Shown one piece after another: positions 31,402 to 37,589 of a stretch of 64,000 nt of DNA. The notes beneath the pieces are model-generated. The model did not search any database and was not told the DNA's origin. It saw only the letters and a list, made by a program, of their open reading frames with translations. Each line of letters starts with the position of its first letter. Position 1 is the first letter of the stretch. Position numbers and translations under genes: made by a program. Origin of the DNA: an uncultured Alphaproteobacteria bacterium (lineage in GTDB: Bacteria > Pseudomonadota > Alphaproteobacteria > HIMB59 > GCA-002718135); the NCBI GenBank assembly GCA_902571865.1, contig CACGDO010000005.1, positions 65,486 to 129,485 of the forward strand, in the 5' to 3' direction.

Positions 31402-32006
31402 ATGAAATTTCTTTTTGATTTAGGTGGTGTTTTTTTGATTGGGACCCTCATTATTTTTATAAAGATGTAATTAAAGACAAAAAAGAAAGAGACAATTTTC
31501 TCAATAATATTTGCAATGATGAATGGAATGTCCAACAAGATGCTGGAAGACTTATAAAAGATGCTGAAACTGATCTAATCAAAACTTATCCTGATTATGA
31601 AGATAAAATTAAATTATATTATAAAAATCATCATAAAATGTTCAGAAAAATTTTTCAATATTCAGTGGATGTTTTAGATCATTTAAAAAATAAAAAATAT
31701 GAGTGTTATGTTTTGTCAAATTGGTCTTGGGAAACATTTAAAGGTATGGATTTAAAATATCCATTCTTAAATAAATTTGATGGCCTAATAATATCTGGAA
31801 AAGAAAAATTGGTTAAACCTAATGCTGAAATATATAAATTAGCTACAAGTCGTTTTAATCTAATTCCAGAGGAAACTGTATTTATTGATGATAAAAAAGA
31901 GAATATTGAGGCTGCAAAGAAACTTGGTTTTTTAACTATACATTTAACTGACCCTGAAATAATAATTCACGAAATTAATAGATTTATTAAATTTAAGCAT
32001 GAATGA
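31402..32006 (+). pseudogene. HAD superfamily hydrolase interrupted by a -1 homopolymer frameshift (T7 at 31430-31436)
   Basis: Frame 1 gives MKFLFDLGGVF then stops; adding one T gives MKFLFDLGGVFFDWDPHYFYKDVIKDKKER..., continuous with the 31638-32006 ORF ('VLSNWSW', 'KLVKPNAEIYKLA', 'FIDDKKENIEAA'). Confidence 0.85.
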
Positions 32007-33150
32007 AACTTTTGATATTTTAGTTATTGGTGGAGGTATTAATGGTGCTGGAATTGTTAGAGATGCATCAGGCAGAAATTTAAAAGTTTGTTTAGTTGAA
32101 AAAAACACAGTTGGCTCAGCCACTTCATCTTGGTCTACAAAATTAATACACGGCGGATTAAGGTATCTTGAAAATTATGAATTTCGCCTTGTACGTGAAT
32201 CTCTCAAGGAAAGAGAGGTAATTAAAAAAATTGCCAGTAATATAACAACACCATTACCTTTTATTATACCTTATCAAAAATCTTTAAGACCTAAATGGTT
32301 AATTAAATTAGGATTATTTTTATATGATAATATTGGTGGCAAAATGACTATACCAAAATCTTCAACTATAAATATTAAAAAGGAAATTCCTAGCATTTTA
32401 AAAGATCAATTTAAAATTGGTTTCCAATATTATGATTTACAAGTTGATGATAAAAAACTTGTTCAGTTAAATGTTGAAGACGCAAAGAAAAAAGGTGCTA
32501 TTATTATTCAAAATAGAAAAGTTATAGATGCAAAACGAAATAAAAATATTTGGGATATAGCTTTAGATGATAATACTATACTTAAATCTAAAATTCTTAT
32601 TAATGCTGCTGGACCTTGGATAAATGAAGTTTTAAGTAATGTTATTAAATTAAATTCAAATAAATCAATTCGACTTGTAAAAGGTAGTCACATAATAACT
32701 AAAAGTCTTTACCGTCAGAAAAAAGCTTTCACTTTACAAAATGAAGATAACAGAATAATTTTTGTTATACCTTATAAAGATGAATATTCCCTTATTGGCA
32801 CCACCGAAACAGAAGTTTTTTCACCAGAAAATCCAAAAATTGATGAAAGTGAAATTGATTATTTATTAAATTCAGTAAATAAATATTTCATTAAACAAAT
32901 ATCGAGAGATGATGTGGTAAGTTCTTATTCTGGAATTAGACCACTTATTGAAGATTTCAAAGAAGCTTCAAAAGTTACTAGAGACTATATATTCGACTTA
33001 AATGAGGATGGTTCACAGGCACCATTATTAAACATCTATGGAGGAAAACTAACGACTTATAGAAAATTAGCTGAAAATGTTCTTTTAACTCTTAATAAAC
33101 ATATTCCAATAAATAAGGAAAGTTCTTGGACTGCTAAACAAAAACTATAA
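31999..33150 (+). CDS. glpD: FAD-dependent glycerol-3-phosphate dehydrogenase, C-terminally truncated (383 aa)
   Basis: 'ILVIGGGINGAGIVRDASGRNLKVCLVEK', 'SWSTKLIHGGLRYLENYEFRLVRESL', 'YGGKLTTYRKLAE'; ends at the WTA..L region where the usual C-terminal domain would begin. Confidence 0.85.
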   Translation: MNETFDILVIGGGINGAGIVRDASGRNLKVCLVEKNTVGSATSSWSTKLIHGGLRYLENYEFRLVRESLKEREVIKKIASNITTPLPFIIPYQKSLRPKWLIKLGLFLYDNIGGKMTIPKSSTINIKKEIPSILKDQFKIGFQYYDLQVDDKKLVQLNVEDAKKKGAIIIQNRKVIDAKRNKNIWDIALDDNTILKSKILINAAGPWINEVLSNVIKLNSNKSIRLVKGSHIITKSLYRQKKAFTLQNEDNRIIFVIPYKDEYSLIGTTETEVFSPENPKIDESEIDYLLNSVNKYFIKQISRDDVVSSYSGIRPLIEDFKEASKVTRDYIFDLNEDGSQAPLLNIYGGKLTTYRKLAENVLLTLNKHIPINKESSWTAKQKL

Positions 33151-33158
33151 TTGGTATC

Positions 33159-33252
33159 CCTCTTAAATAACTTTTCAAATTTGGTGGGCAGAAAAGTTTT
33201 ATAAGAGGAATACTTCTTATAGGAGGAAATAATATGAACTCTCTGCCCATCA
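33159..33252 (+). ncRNA. Candidate structured RNA element with possible H-type pseudoknot and embedded SD/ATG
   Basis: Arms 33159-33176/33191-33208 pair 15 of 18; loop ggtgggca (33183-33190) complements tgcccatc (33244-33251); SD aggagg 33221-33226 and ATG 33234. Confidence 0.45.
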
Positions 33253-33291
33253 TTATTTTAGTTTAAATTTATGATATTTATTGAAAATTTT

Positions 33292-33330
33292 TAAAAAAGG
33301 GATGTATTGCCCCTTATATTAGGGGCAATA
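33292..33330 (-). terminator. Rho-independent-like terminator of the ugpC-type operon
   Basis: Perfect 10-bp stem tattgcccct-tatatt-aggggcaata (33305-33330) followed on the minus strand by a T-rich tract. Confidence 0.8.
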
Positions 33331-33345
33331 TTCAATACGATTCTA

Positions 33346-34422
33346 TTATTTAAATGCTTGTCCTGAACTGTCAAATAACTGGCATCTTCCAGCAGGAAAA
33401 CCAACTTTTACAGTATCACCAACTTTAATTTCTGAATGTCCTTCAGTTTCAGCAACTAATGGCTCTCCATCTTTTTCAAGGTATAGGTAAGTAACGTCAC
33501 CAAGTTTTTCCACAACAAATACTTTACTCTCCCAAGATCCATCTGCATCACCATTTACTACTAAGTGTTCAGGTCTAATACCTAGAGTTACTGAATCACC
33601 CTCTGAGGAGGATGCTGACATTTTAGAGACTGATATTTTTGACATTCCCATAATATCAACTTCTGTAGCATCAGAACTTTTGCTTAATATCTTACTTGAA
33701 ATAAAGTTCATTTTTGGTGAACCAATAAATCCACCTACGAACATATTATTTGGTCTATCATAAAGTTCTAATGGGGATCCTTTTTGTGAAACGATACCTG
33801 TATCTAGAACAACAATATCGTCAGCTAAAGTCATAGCTTCTGTCTGATCATGTGTAACATAGATCATTGTTGCTTCTAGTTCATTATGAAGTTTTGCTAA
33901 TTCAACTCTCATTTGAACCCTTAATGCAGCATCAAGGTTTGAAAGCGGTTCATCAAATAAGAAAACTTTTGGTTTTCTTGTAATTGCTCTTCCAATAGCA
34001 ACACGTTGTCTTTGACCACCTGAAAGTTGTTTTGGTTTTCTTTGAAGATAATCTTCTATTTGAAGAATTCTTGCTGCCTCATTAACTCTTTCATTAATCT
34101 CATCTTTTGATCTTTTTTCTAATTTCAAACCAAAAGCCATGTTATCAAATACAGTCATGTGAGGGTATAATGCATAAGATTGAAATACCATTGCAATATT
34201 TCTTTGCTTTGGTGGTAAATCATTAACTACCTGACCATCAATTGAAATTGTACCTGAATTAATATCTTCAAGTCCTGCTATCATTCTTAACATAGTTGAT
34301 TTTCCACAACCACTAGGTCCAACTAGAACTGTGAACGATTGACTTTTGATATCTAGGGATACATCCTTAATTACATGGACGTCTCCAAAATATTTGTTAA
34401 CAGTATTTATATTTATATCTGC
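33346..34422 (-). CDS. Carbohydrate ABC transporter ATP-binding protein (UgpC/MalK/MsmK type)
   Basis: Walker A 'GPSGCGKSTMLR', 'LSGGQRQRVAIGRAI', 'LFDEPLSNLDA', C-terminal TOBE-like region; GTG start at 34422 preceded by 'aaaggagg' preferred to listed 34452. Confidence 0.93.
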   Translation of the reverse strand, partial: ADININTVNKYFGDVHVIKDVSLDIKSQSFTVLVGPSGCGKSTMLRMIAGLEDINSGTISIDGQVVNDLPPKQRNIAMVFQSYALYPHMTVFDNMAFGLKLEKRSKDEINERVNEAARILQIEDYLQRKPKQLSGGQRQRVAIGRAITRKPKVFLFDEPLSNLDAALRVQMRVELAKLHNELEATMIYVTHDQTEAMTLADDIVVLDTGIVSQKGSPLELYDRPNNMFVGGFIGSPKMNFISSKILSKSSDATEVDIMGMSKISVSKMSASSSEGDSVTLGIRPEHLVVNGDADGSWESKVFVVEKLGDVTYLYLEKDGEPLVAETEGHSEIKVGDTVKVGFPAGRCQLFDSSGQAFK

Positions 34423-34453
34423 CACTTCATCCTCCTTTGAGCGATCTTTCAAG

Positions 34454-34474
34454 TGTATGAAAACTCATCATACA
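34454..34474. promoter_or_regulatory. Inverted repeat upstream of ATPase gene (possible operator)
   Basis: tgtatga-aaactca-tcataca, 7-bp perfect arms, about 30 nt upstream of the GTG start. Confidence 0.4.
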
Positions 34475-34529
34475 AATATAAAAGCATTTAACGATAATTT
34501 AATATAAAAATCAATAGCTAAAAGGTTTT

Positions 34530-35354
34530 TTATCCTTTTACCGCACCAGCTGTAAGTCCTTTAACAATTCTATTTTGGAAAATTAATACCACAATTAAAA
34601 CAGGTATAGTAACAAGAACCGAAGCTGCCATAATATTTGGCCATGGAATTTCAAATTCACTTTCTCCTCGAAAACTAGCCATGAATACGGGAAGGGTTGT
34701 AACCTCTGGTGATATTGTTAATGTTAATGCAAATAAGAATTCATTCCATGCTCCTATAAAAGCTAATATTCCTGTTGTTACCATTGCTGGCCACATTAAA
34801 GGTAAAAAAACTTTAAATAAAATCACGTAAGAATTTGCGCCATCAACCATTGCTGCTTCTTCAATTTCAATAGGTAAATCTCTTATGAATGCAGTCAATA
34901 TCCATACAGTGAATGGTAAAGAAAAAACAACATAAGACATTATAAGACCTTGATATGTATTATAAACACCAAGACTTCTTACTAATTCAAACATTCCTGA
35001 TAATATTGCTACTTGAGGGAACATTGATGTGCCTAGAATTCCAAGGAGTAAAACTGTCCTCCCTTTAAATTGAATTCTTCCTAAAGCATAAGAAGCTGTC
35101 AATGCAATTAGAAGACAAAATAAAACAGTTAATGTTGAGACTAAAAATGAGTTAAAAAATGTGGAACCAAATGCTGGTCTATTAAGAACATAAATAAAAT
35201 TTTTAAGAACAGGTTCACTAGGCCAATATTCTACAATAAAAGTCCCCGTACCAGCTTTTTTTAATGCCGATACGATTGCCCAATAAAAAGGAAAGCATGT
35301 ATAAACTAAAATTATTAACAATAAGAATACCAGAGATATTTTTTTCCAACTCAT
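34530..35354 (-). CDS. Carbohydrate ABC transporter permease (MalG/UgpE type)
   Basis: EAA motif 'IEEAAMVDGANSYVILFKVFLPLMWPA', C-terminal 'VKGLTAGAVKG'. Confidence 0.92.
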   Translation of the reverse strand: MSWKKISLVFLLLIILVYTCFPFYWAIVSALKKAGTGTFIVEYWPSEPVLKNFIYVLNRPAFGSTFFNSFLVSTLTVLFCLLIALTASYALGRIQFKGRTVLLLGILGTSMFPQVAILSGMFELVRSLGVYNTYQGLIMSYVVFSLPFTVWILTAFIRDLPIEIEEAAMVDGANSYVILFKVFLPLMWPAMVTTGILAFIGAWNEFLFALTLTISPEVTTLPVFMASFRGESEFEIPWPNIMAASVLVTIPVLIVVLIFQNRIVKGLTAGAVKG

Positions 35355-36265
35355 TAATAAACTCCCTGTCTATCAAAACTTGTTTTCGTGATAATTAAGT
35401 AAAGAATTGTGGCAATCGTCAAAAATGCAAACAATAGAGTTGATGCAGCAGATCCTTGTCCTACTTCCATGAAATCAACTAACCATTGTCTGGCGTATAC
35501 GGACATTGAAGCTGTTTCTCTAGAATTTGTAGTGAGTACATATAATAGATCAAAGACTCTCAAAGCATCTAATGTTCTAAATATAATTGCTATAACTAAA
35601 GTTGGTTTAATTAATGGTAAAGTGATATTCCAAAATACTTTCCATGAACTAACACCATCAATTCTTGTTGATTCGTAAATATCTGTTGGGATCATTTGCA
35701 AAGCTGCTAAGGTTAATAATGTTATAAAGGGAGTAGTTTTCCATACGTCTACAATAATAGCAGCTGCCATAGAGCTATCTGGATAAGCTAAAAAAGCTAT
35801 AGGTTCTGAGATTATGCTTAAGTCCATTAAAATTTCATTAAAAACACCAAATTGTTGATTAAACATCCATTGAAACATTTTTGCATTAACAATTGTTGGT
35901 ATTGCCCAAGGTATTAAAATTGCAGCCCTTACAATACCTCTTGCTGGCATATTGTTATTTAAAATTAGAGCAAAGGTGACACCAATTATGGTTTCAAAAA
36001 AAACAGAAAAAAAAGAAAAGATAAAAGTATTTTTAACTGAAACCCACCACCACTCATCATAAAAAAACAGAGTTTCGTAATGAAACCATCCAACATAATT
36101 ATAATTATATAAATCTCCTAATCTAGCATCTGTAAAACTATAATTTATTGTTGTTATAAGAGGGTATATGGCAACGACTGCAAGACAGATAAACATGGGT
36201 GTTAAAAATATCCATGCGGATCTAATTCTTTCTTTTGAAAGTTTTGTTCTTTGAATTTTTGCCAT
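35354..36265 (-). CDS. Carbohydrate ABC transporter permease (MalF/UgpA type)
   Basis: EAA motif 'IYESTRIDGVSSWKVFWNITLPLIKP'. Confidence 0.9.
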   Translation of the reverse strand: MAKIQRTKLSKERIRSAWIFLTPMFICLAVVAIYPLITTINYSFTDARLGDLYNYNYVGWFHYETLFFYDEWWWVSVKNTFIFSFFSVFFETIIGVTFALILNNNMPARGIVRAAILIPWAIPTIVNAKMFQWMFNQQFGVFNEILMDLSIISEPIAFLAYPDSSMAAAIIVDVWKTTPFITLLTLAALQMIPTDIYESTRIDGVSSWKVFWNITLPLIKPTLVIAIIFRTLDALRVFDLLYVLTTNSRETASMSVYARQWLVDFMEVGQGSAASTLLFAFLTIATILYLIITKTSFDRQGVY

Positions 36266-36281
36266 ATGATAATCTAATTAG

Positions 36282-36308
36282 ATTACTGGCGCATTAAGCG
36301 CCAGTAAT
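36282..36308 (-). other. Perfect stem-loop between SBP and permease genes
   Basis: attactggcgc-attaa-gcgccagtaat, 11-bp arms, 12 nt downstream of the SBP stop. Confidence 0.9.
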
Positions 36309-36320
36309 AAAAATATATAA

Positions 36321-37589
36321 TTAGAACTTTCTAGACAGTGCTTTTAAGTCCTTTTCCATTGCAGCAGCTGCATCTTCAGCACTTTTTGAACCAGTTAATA
36401 CTGAATGTACTTCATTAAAGAATACGTTACTAACTTGTCCATAATACTTATGAGATACAGTTGATGGTCTCGCAACAGCGTTATTAAATGTATCAAATAG
36501 CATACCAAAGAAAGGGTTTGCTGCTTTTACATCTAGGTCATCATATAACACAGGTCTTGTTGGAAGATTTGAAGTATCAATTGCTTTAGTCTTCATAACT
36601 TCAACACTTGTCATGTGTTTAATTAAATCAGCTGCAATTTCTGGGTTCTTAGAATTTTTATTCACCATTAATTGCCAGCCTCCTAATGCACCAGTCATTT
36701 TTCCATCTGATCCACCACCAGGTAGTGCCATAGCTCCAACTTTATCTTTGATTGGACTATCATCAGCTTGTGAACGACTCCATGCATATGGCCAGTTTCT
36801 CATAAACACTGCATTACCAGTTTGCCATACACCTCTTGCATCTTCTTCTTTGTAAGTAACAACATCTTCAGGAGAAATTGTTCCTACCCAAGAAGCAGCA
36901 GTTTTAAGTGCAGCAATGGCATTTGGATTATTTATTGAAACCGTACCGTCTGCTTCAATGATATTTCCACCACCAAATGAGTTTACCCATTCAATACCAT
37001 CACAAGTTAAACCTTCGTAAGCAGCACCTTGCCATACAAAACCTTGCATTTTAGCATTTCCTGCAGCTCTTTCTTTGTCTTGAATGAACTGAGCAGTTTC
37101 TGCTAATTCACTCCATGTTGAAGGCGGGCTTTTGCCATATTTATCAAGTAAGTCTGTTCTGTAGTATAAAAGACCTGCATCCGTGAAATAAGGAACAGCA
37201 ACATATTTACCACCAACAGTGTTATTACCTACAATACCTTCAAAGAAATCTGCTTTGTGAGCATCATCAAAAATATTATTTAAATCATATGCACAATCAG
37301 CAAAAATTCCTGGCCAAATAACATCAATCATAAAAATATCGATATCACTTGATCCTGAACTACAAATTTGTTGATACAAATTTAGAGTATCAGTTGCACT
37401 AGCTGGTCTGTAAACATAACCAATTTCGTGACCATTTTCTTCAGCCCAATCAAGAGCAAATCTATAATGCTCTCTCATAGCTCTTTCGTCATCGCCACCC
37501 ATTGTAATGGTAATTTTTGCAGCAAAAACGTTGAATGACATCATTAATGCAACAAAAAAAGTAGCGATTAATTTTAGAGATAATTTCAT
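36321..37589 (-). CDS. Extracellular sugar-binding protein of ABC importer
   Basis: Signal peptide 'MKLSLKLIATFFVALMMSFNVFAA', SBP family 1 features. Confidence 0.92.
   Translation of the reverse strand: MKLSLKLIATFFVALMMSFNVFAAKITITMGGDDERAMREHYRFALDWAEENGHEIGYVYRPASATDTLNLYQQICSSGSSDIDIFMIDVIWPGIFADCAYDLNNIFDDAHKADFFEGIVGNNTVGGKYVAVPYFTDAGLLYYRTDLLDKYGKSPPSTWSELAETAQFIQDKERAAGNAKMQGFVWQGAAYEGLTCDGIEWVNSFGGGNIIEADGTVSINNPNAIAALKTAASWVGTISPEDVVTYKEEDARGVWQTGNAVFMRNWPYAWSRSQADDSPIKDKVGAMALPGGGSDGKMTGALGGWQLMVNKNSKNPEIAADLIKHMTSVEVMKTKAIDTSNLPTRPVLYDDLDVKAANPFFGMLFDTFNNAVARPSTVSHKYYGQVSNVFFNEVHSVLTGSKSAEDAAAAMEKDLKALSRKF

Follow-up and report, generated by a model that had tools for sequence, protein, structure and literature searches.

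The locus and the folds of the candidate RNA

The window analysed here is a 64,000-nucleotide stretch of DNA from an uncultured alphaproteobacterium. In it, a MalK/UgpC-type ABC ATPase gene (33346-34452, minus strand) belongs to the same cluster as a sugar-type binding-protein (SBP) gene (SBP_bac_1; 36321-37589, minus strand). The spacer beyond the ATPase gene is bounded on the far side by a GlpD-like ORF (31999-33150, plus strand), whose 383 aa match the first ~390 positions of the 502-508 aa glycerol-3-phosphate dehydrogenase models, and whose C-terminal domain is missing. A terminator scan places an intrinsic terminator of the transporter operon at 33305-33330 (minus strand), and downstream of it lies the element considered in this study.

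A preliminary description of the spacer had reported several complementary sequences and a short reading frame, all of which are present. They are the inverted-repeat arms at 33159-33176 and 33191-33208; a loop, ggtgggca (33183-33190), that is complementary to tgcccatc (33244-33251); a competing tataaga/tcttata pair (33200-33206 and 33215-33221); and a Shine-Dalgarno (SD) sequence with an ATG. Two of the counts are corrected here: the arms match at 16 of 18 positions rather than 15, and the frame opened by the ATG (33234-33266, plus strand) has 10 codons plus a TAA stop rather than 11 codons. The proposal of a structured RNA with alternative helices is borne out by the homologues and their covariation (below) and by the predicted folding of the minus strand, which over 33145-33235 has a z-score of -7.1 relative to dinucleotide shuffles, with none of 200 shuffles folding as well. 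The value for the plus strand (33145-33275, 131 nt) is -2.9. The preliminary description had not recognised the element as a member of any known family, and a cmscan of 32900-33500 against Rfam, on both strands and at gathering and relaxed thresholds (E up to 5), indeed returned no relevant family.

Sequence comparisons indicate that the evolving unit is a minus-strand RNA of ~63 nt, running from 33248 down to 33186, with an optional longer hairpin that extends to ~33140. The core (33186-33248, minus strand) is defined by the covariance model, by covariation and by a sharp start of conservation. Its predicted fold has a closing stem, GGGCAGAGAGUU / AACUUUUCUGCCC (33248-33237 with 33198-33186), that is supported by covariation and encloses a large loop and an inner hairpin. 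The inner hairpin, UAUAAGA-loop-UCUUAUA (33200-33221), is the competing hairpin of the preliminary description and the third helix of the covariation analysis. A putative anti-SD seed, CAUAUUAUUUCCUCCUA (33220-33236), is mostly unpaired in the predicted MFE fold of the window copy.

In the window's clade there is a 3′ extension (33140-33185, minus strand), in which the arm at 33191-33213 would pair with that at 33154-33176 to form a long terminator-like hairpin, with a distal U5 (33144-33140) on its 3′ side. The window's own copy has a weak U-tract, and the terminator scan did not call this hairpin. U-runs are found elsewhere: in L028/L087 U7 comes directly after the closing stem, and in L023-L027 a U-run directly follows the same longer hairpin. 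Because the strand 33198-33191 is common to the closing stem and the long hairpin, the sRNA has two alternative folds. The loop complementarity, which had been thought to form a pseudoknot, is genuine and shows covariation (G-C to A-U, C-G to U-A); what it forms, however, is the sRNA's closing stem. A loop to 5′-end pseudoknot might nevertheless arise in the long form, through pairing of GGGCA with the loop UGCCC.

Homologues, covariation and strand

When 61 related genomes were searched at the DNA level, strong matches were obtained in 27 of the 37 genomes from the window's genus. Of 163 genomes of the order, 92 had a match at E <= 0.1 (most at E ~1e-17, the best at ~1e-18) to a covariance model (R1) built from 13 sequences, almost always a single one per genome; the window copy was matched at 33174-33251 (minus strand) with 99.7 bits. 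The strong matches all fall in the window's own family, in four genera; weak but plausible matches occur in two more genera, and those of G127 (L079) and G134 (L078) are of this weak but plausible kind. In a class-wide sample of 387 genomes, matches were confined to its two genomes of the window's genus. The sole match in the sister family looks like chance, and weak matches in G045 (L080), G012 (a second match) and G013 (L090), with E-values of 0.07-0.08, were dropped as coding sequence or chance.

Read in the minus orientation, conservation begins abruptly at GRGCAG (GGGCAG or GAGCAG), usually 6-8 nt past a -10 box. Within the conserved stretch, AUUAUUUCCUCC is invariant, and the seed is invariant in alignment A1. 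The motif UUUCCUCC is kept in 50 of 50 distinct homologues, its presence having been part of the filter.

The helices of the RNA show compensatory change in these homologues. Among 28 of them, two-sided changes occur at seven pairs (such as the replacement of G-C by A-U in the closing stem and of C-G by U-A in L076), and the covariation of 0.158 compares with 0.105 in shuffles, none of 500 of which reach the observed value; slid controls also give values well below it. For the inner hairpin, 95% of cells are paired and three pairs have two-sided changes. A long imperfect palindrome in an AT-rich spacer might suggest a selectively neutral repeat or a mobile element with inverted repeats, such as a MITE; however, this is contradicted by the single copy per genome, the fixed position and the compensatory covariation, and we regard it as hardly credible.

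The pairs also indicate which strand is functional. Read on the minus strand, 29 of the 503 pair cells in the 28 homologues are G-U, and the plus-strand reading gives three; the cells are not independent, owing to shared ancestry, and the wobbles fall at six different pairs. The preliminary description had favoured a riboswitch-like element on the plus strand that encloses the SD and ATG. A cis-acting RNA or leader of this kind would contain a short translated ORF, and its structure would hide or expose the SD and ATG from which the leader peptide is made. This reading has some attraction: the SD-ATG arrangement is perfect, the stretch that follows the ATG is paired in the MFE fold, and short frames with a median of 10 codons occur on the plus strand of most homologues. 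The idea does not hold up well, however, because the wobbles point to the minus strand, and the ATG is absent from 5 of 50 distinct homologues (L076, L077, L078, L079 and L086). The peptides are unrelated between clades, differing in frame and sequence with nothing in common beyond residues dictated by the stems. There is also no conserved plus-strand gene downstream; the upstream plus-strand gene is glpD in some genomes and HAD-type or another gene elsewhere; and it is the minus strand that carries the promoter and terminator features. We therefore consider a plus-strand leader very improbable, and the 10-codon frame is judged not to be a gene, given the losses of its ATG and the lack of conservation of its peptide.

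The functional strand being the minus strand, what reads as an SD and an ATG on the plus strand is complementary to an anti-SD seed (CAUAUUAUUUCCUCC) that is conserved and predicted to be mostly unpaired. The SAM-II and preQ1 riboswitches, to which the element had been likened, are short RNAs with pseudoknot-capable loops that act as cis elements before the gene they regulate. The RNA described here differs in being on the other strand, in having no downstream gene to regulate in most genomes and in its lack of an Rfam match; a riboswitch with an SD-sequestering pseudoknot was rejected on account of the minus-strand wobbles and the lack of a conserved plus-strand ORF. Overall, the sequence comparisons give good support to the gene, its strand and its fold, and the function proposed below is a prediction.

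Predicted promoter, neighbours and a shared operator

Features of an independent transcript are predicted on the minus strand: a -10 box in the window, plus an operator and a U-tract in relatives. The -10 box, TAAAAT (33255-33260), lies 6 nt before the start (~33248); it is TATAAT in several more divergent copies, and at least five of six matches to TATAAT are found in 55 of 56 distinct upstream regions, compared to 50% for shuffles. The constant neighbour is the ATPase gene, which is 88% identical between genera. The sRNA start lies 98 nt past its stop codon in the window, and ~97-115 nt after it, on the same strand, at almost every locus whose examined stretch includes that gene. This constancy would also be expected of a 3′UTR-derived RNA that is processed from the transporter mRNA and has the same anti-SD function without being an independent gene. 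However, an intrinsic terminator stands in between, a -10 box precedes the conserved start, and in several lineages there is a LacI-type operator, CCAAAACGYTTTRG, at -22 or -49 of that start. Processing from the mRNA thus seems unlikely, though it is the alternative to which we give the most weight.

Of the two sides of the spacer, that of the upstream minus-strand ATPase gene is conserved and the glpD side varies. Downstream of the sRNA there may be a convergent glpD, a convergent HAD-type gene or a co-directional gene, and this variability argues against a cis element. One possible cis role would be as an attenuator or leader for the next minus-strand gene. It is consistent with the mutual exclusivity of the closing stem and the long hairpin, and with the co-directional gene that follows in three sampled loci (L081, L083 and L087); but most of the loci examined have a convergent gene (glpD or HAD-type) next, which leaves nothing to regulate in cis, and we give this role very little probability.

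In relatives, the LacI-type operator links the sRNA to the transporter. The operator at the sRNA, CCAAAACGYTTTGG, recurs at a distance of ~5-6 kb, in the interval that separates the transporter SBP gene from a divergent lacI-family gene, whose product has LacI HTH and sugar-binding domains. Both copies are present in G001, G131 and G132, and the second copy alone (on the SBP-lacI side) in G086 and G111. In G132 and G131 (L309 and L311), a LacI-type palindrome with one mismatch is also located after a transporter permease gene and before a Fur-like gene.

The operator was not found in the window's own genome, and in the window no lacI gene adjoins the cluster; this lineage therefore probably regulates the sRNA differently. 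The ATPase gene is conserved throughout the family, but by BLASTP the SBP of the window's cluster (33346-37589) shows no similarity to the lacI-linked SBP that occupies the corresponding position in G111. It seems from these sequences that the transporter was swapped around a conserved ATPase-sRNA pair in the window lineage.

Predicted targets and Hfq

Potential targets were sought with RNAduplex by pairing the seed region with 1555 predicted leaders of the same genome (about 1.58 Mb of 1.63 Mb), with a simple choice of start sites and no term for target accessibility. The best pairing, at -29.0 kcal/mol, is with the leader AAAUACUUCUUCAAGGAGGAAAU of a gene for an SBP_bac_3 (amino-acid type) protein at G000:C3:139917, and the second, at -28.5 kcal/mol, is with the leader UAUGGAGGAAAUAAUAUG of a gene for an SBP_bac_5 (peptide type) protein at G000:C8:84503; the sugar-type SBP gene of the window's own cluster ranks tenth, at -22.3 kcal/mol. 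A crude signal-peptide filter is passed by 7 of the 10 top targets, compared to 31 of 98 strong-SD genes. Pfam confirms six of these seven as binding proteins, and the remaining one appears to be a false positive.

Part of this pairing is generic because SBP genes have strong SDs anyway. In 120 control RNAs that keep UUUCCUCCU and have shuffled flanks, two genes at or below -28 are obtained for one RNA, and the single best energy is equalled by six. Among strong-SD genes, those with signal peptides pair better than others relative to the flank-shuffled controls (P 1.6e-4), and the same median advantage is reached by 6 of the 120 shuffled RNAs (about P 0.05). The window's subclade retains the SBP_bac_3 pairing, whereas the G001/G036/G092 clade has lost it but still has the sRNA; conservation of the SBP_bac_5 pairing extends over much of the genus and to g6. 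On this evidence the flanks carry some target information, and much of the predicted affinity is generic anti-SD pairing.

A separate observation comes from the sister family, where the sRNA is absent according to the covariance model. In L029-L031 (G053, G038 and G058), the leader of an SBP gene resembles the plus strand of the sRNA: the leaders in L029 and L030 contain TTCTTATAGGAGGAAATAATATG, which agrees with the plus strand of the seed region over 23 nt without a mismatch, and that of L031 has one change.

No match to Hfq (PF17209) was found in five genomes of the order (G000, G111, G001, G131 and G037), one of which is 99% complete in one contig, and the same search was positive in control genomes, including Caulobacter. 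Hfq is probably absent from these genomes.

A proposed function and its relation to known sRNAs

To our knowledge, few regulatory RNAs have been described for small-genome ocean alphaproteobacteria. A literature search with partial coverage found none for this clade.

We consider it likely that the element is a minus-strand sRNA gene, situated after a sugar-transporter operon, whose product represses SBP mRNAs through an anti-SD seed. The transcript would be ~63-105 nt, with a stem closing the loop that presents the seed, and the seed would pair with the SD region and start codon of periplasmic SBP mRNAs, such that ribosome entry is blocked. In the presumed ancestral arrangement, the same LacI-type operator would control the sRNA promoter and the transporter operon, an implication of which is that the sRNA would be made when that sugar is available. 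The cell would then invest less in other uptake systems. We infer transcription, pairing in vivo, repression and this physiological purpose from features that can be read directly in the genomes, namely the gene with its strand and fold, the seed, the linkage to the ATPase gene and the operator shared in relatives.

A fuller scenario, which we put forward tentatively and would place slightly below an even chance, is that a new sRNA family, co-induced with a sugar transporter through a LacI-type repressor, ranks nutrients for uptake by covering the ribosome-binding sites of other SBPs. Its hosts would be AT-rich, probably marine alphaproteobacteria apparently without Hfq, and the window lineage would have kept the ATPase-sRNA module when the transporter genes and the repressor were replaced. 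If true, this would couple sugar sensing to how other uptake proteins are translated, and would apparently do so in the absence of Hfq.

By analogy, the RNA most likely represents a new sRNA family that would work like AbcR and NfeR1. AbcR1/2 and NfeR1 silence mRNAs for transport proteins, especially periplasmic SBPs, via anti-SD motifs (PMC8844928, PMC3712013, PMC7143759). AbcR1 and AbcR2 (alpha-r15) of Rhizobiales are trans-acting sRNAs that repress ABC-transporter SBP mRNAs through unpaired anti-SD motifs (PMC8844928, PMC3712013); they are 114-121 nt, have three stem-loops and two anti-SD motifs, are encoded next to lsrB and are bound by Hfq (PMC7143759, PMC8844928). The likeness is that of an alphaproteobacterial anti-SD sRNA, with the pairing to SBP leaders being in silico here. 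In contrast, the present RNA is ~63-105 nt, and instead of three stem-loops and two anti-SD motifs it has one closed stem with an inner hairpin and a single extended CCUCC seed; its gene lies beside a sugar ATPase gene, and Hfq was not found. The AbcR/alpha-r15 covariance model (SuhB, RF00519) has no match in 32900-33500 on either strand at E up to 5.

NfeR1 (alpha-r14) of Sinorhizobium is also an anti-SD sRNA, and its two validated targets encode periplasmic SBPs (PMC8844928). It is about 115 nt, with three hairpins that each have an anti-SD loop, and is present in several copies per genome (PMC7143759, PMC8844928). The RNA described here resembles it in being an anti-SD sRNA aimed, by predicted pairing, at SBP mRNAs, and differs in having one copy per genome and one seed rather than three hairpins with anti-SD loops.

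The operator arrangement has a parallel in AglR and ThuR, which are local regulators encoded divergently from homologous sugar ABC operons (PMC4052901). Common to these systems and the relatives of the window are a lacI-family gene divergent from a sugar ABC operon and an even palindrome with a central CG, a comparison of layout rather than of orthology. The difference is that in the relatives a further copy of the palindrome stands in front of an sRNA gene located at the operon's 3′ end. If the proposed function is correct, anti-SD control of SBPs, known from rhizobia and their relatives, would also operate in a distant order, through an RNA that looks unrelated.
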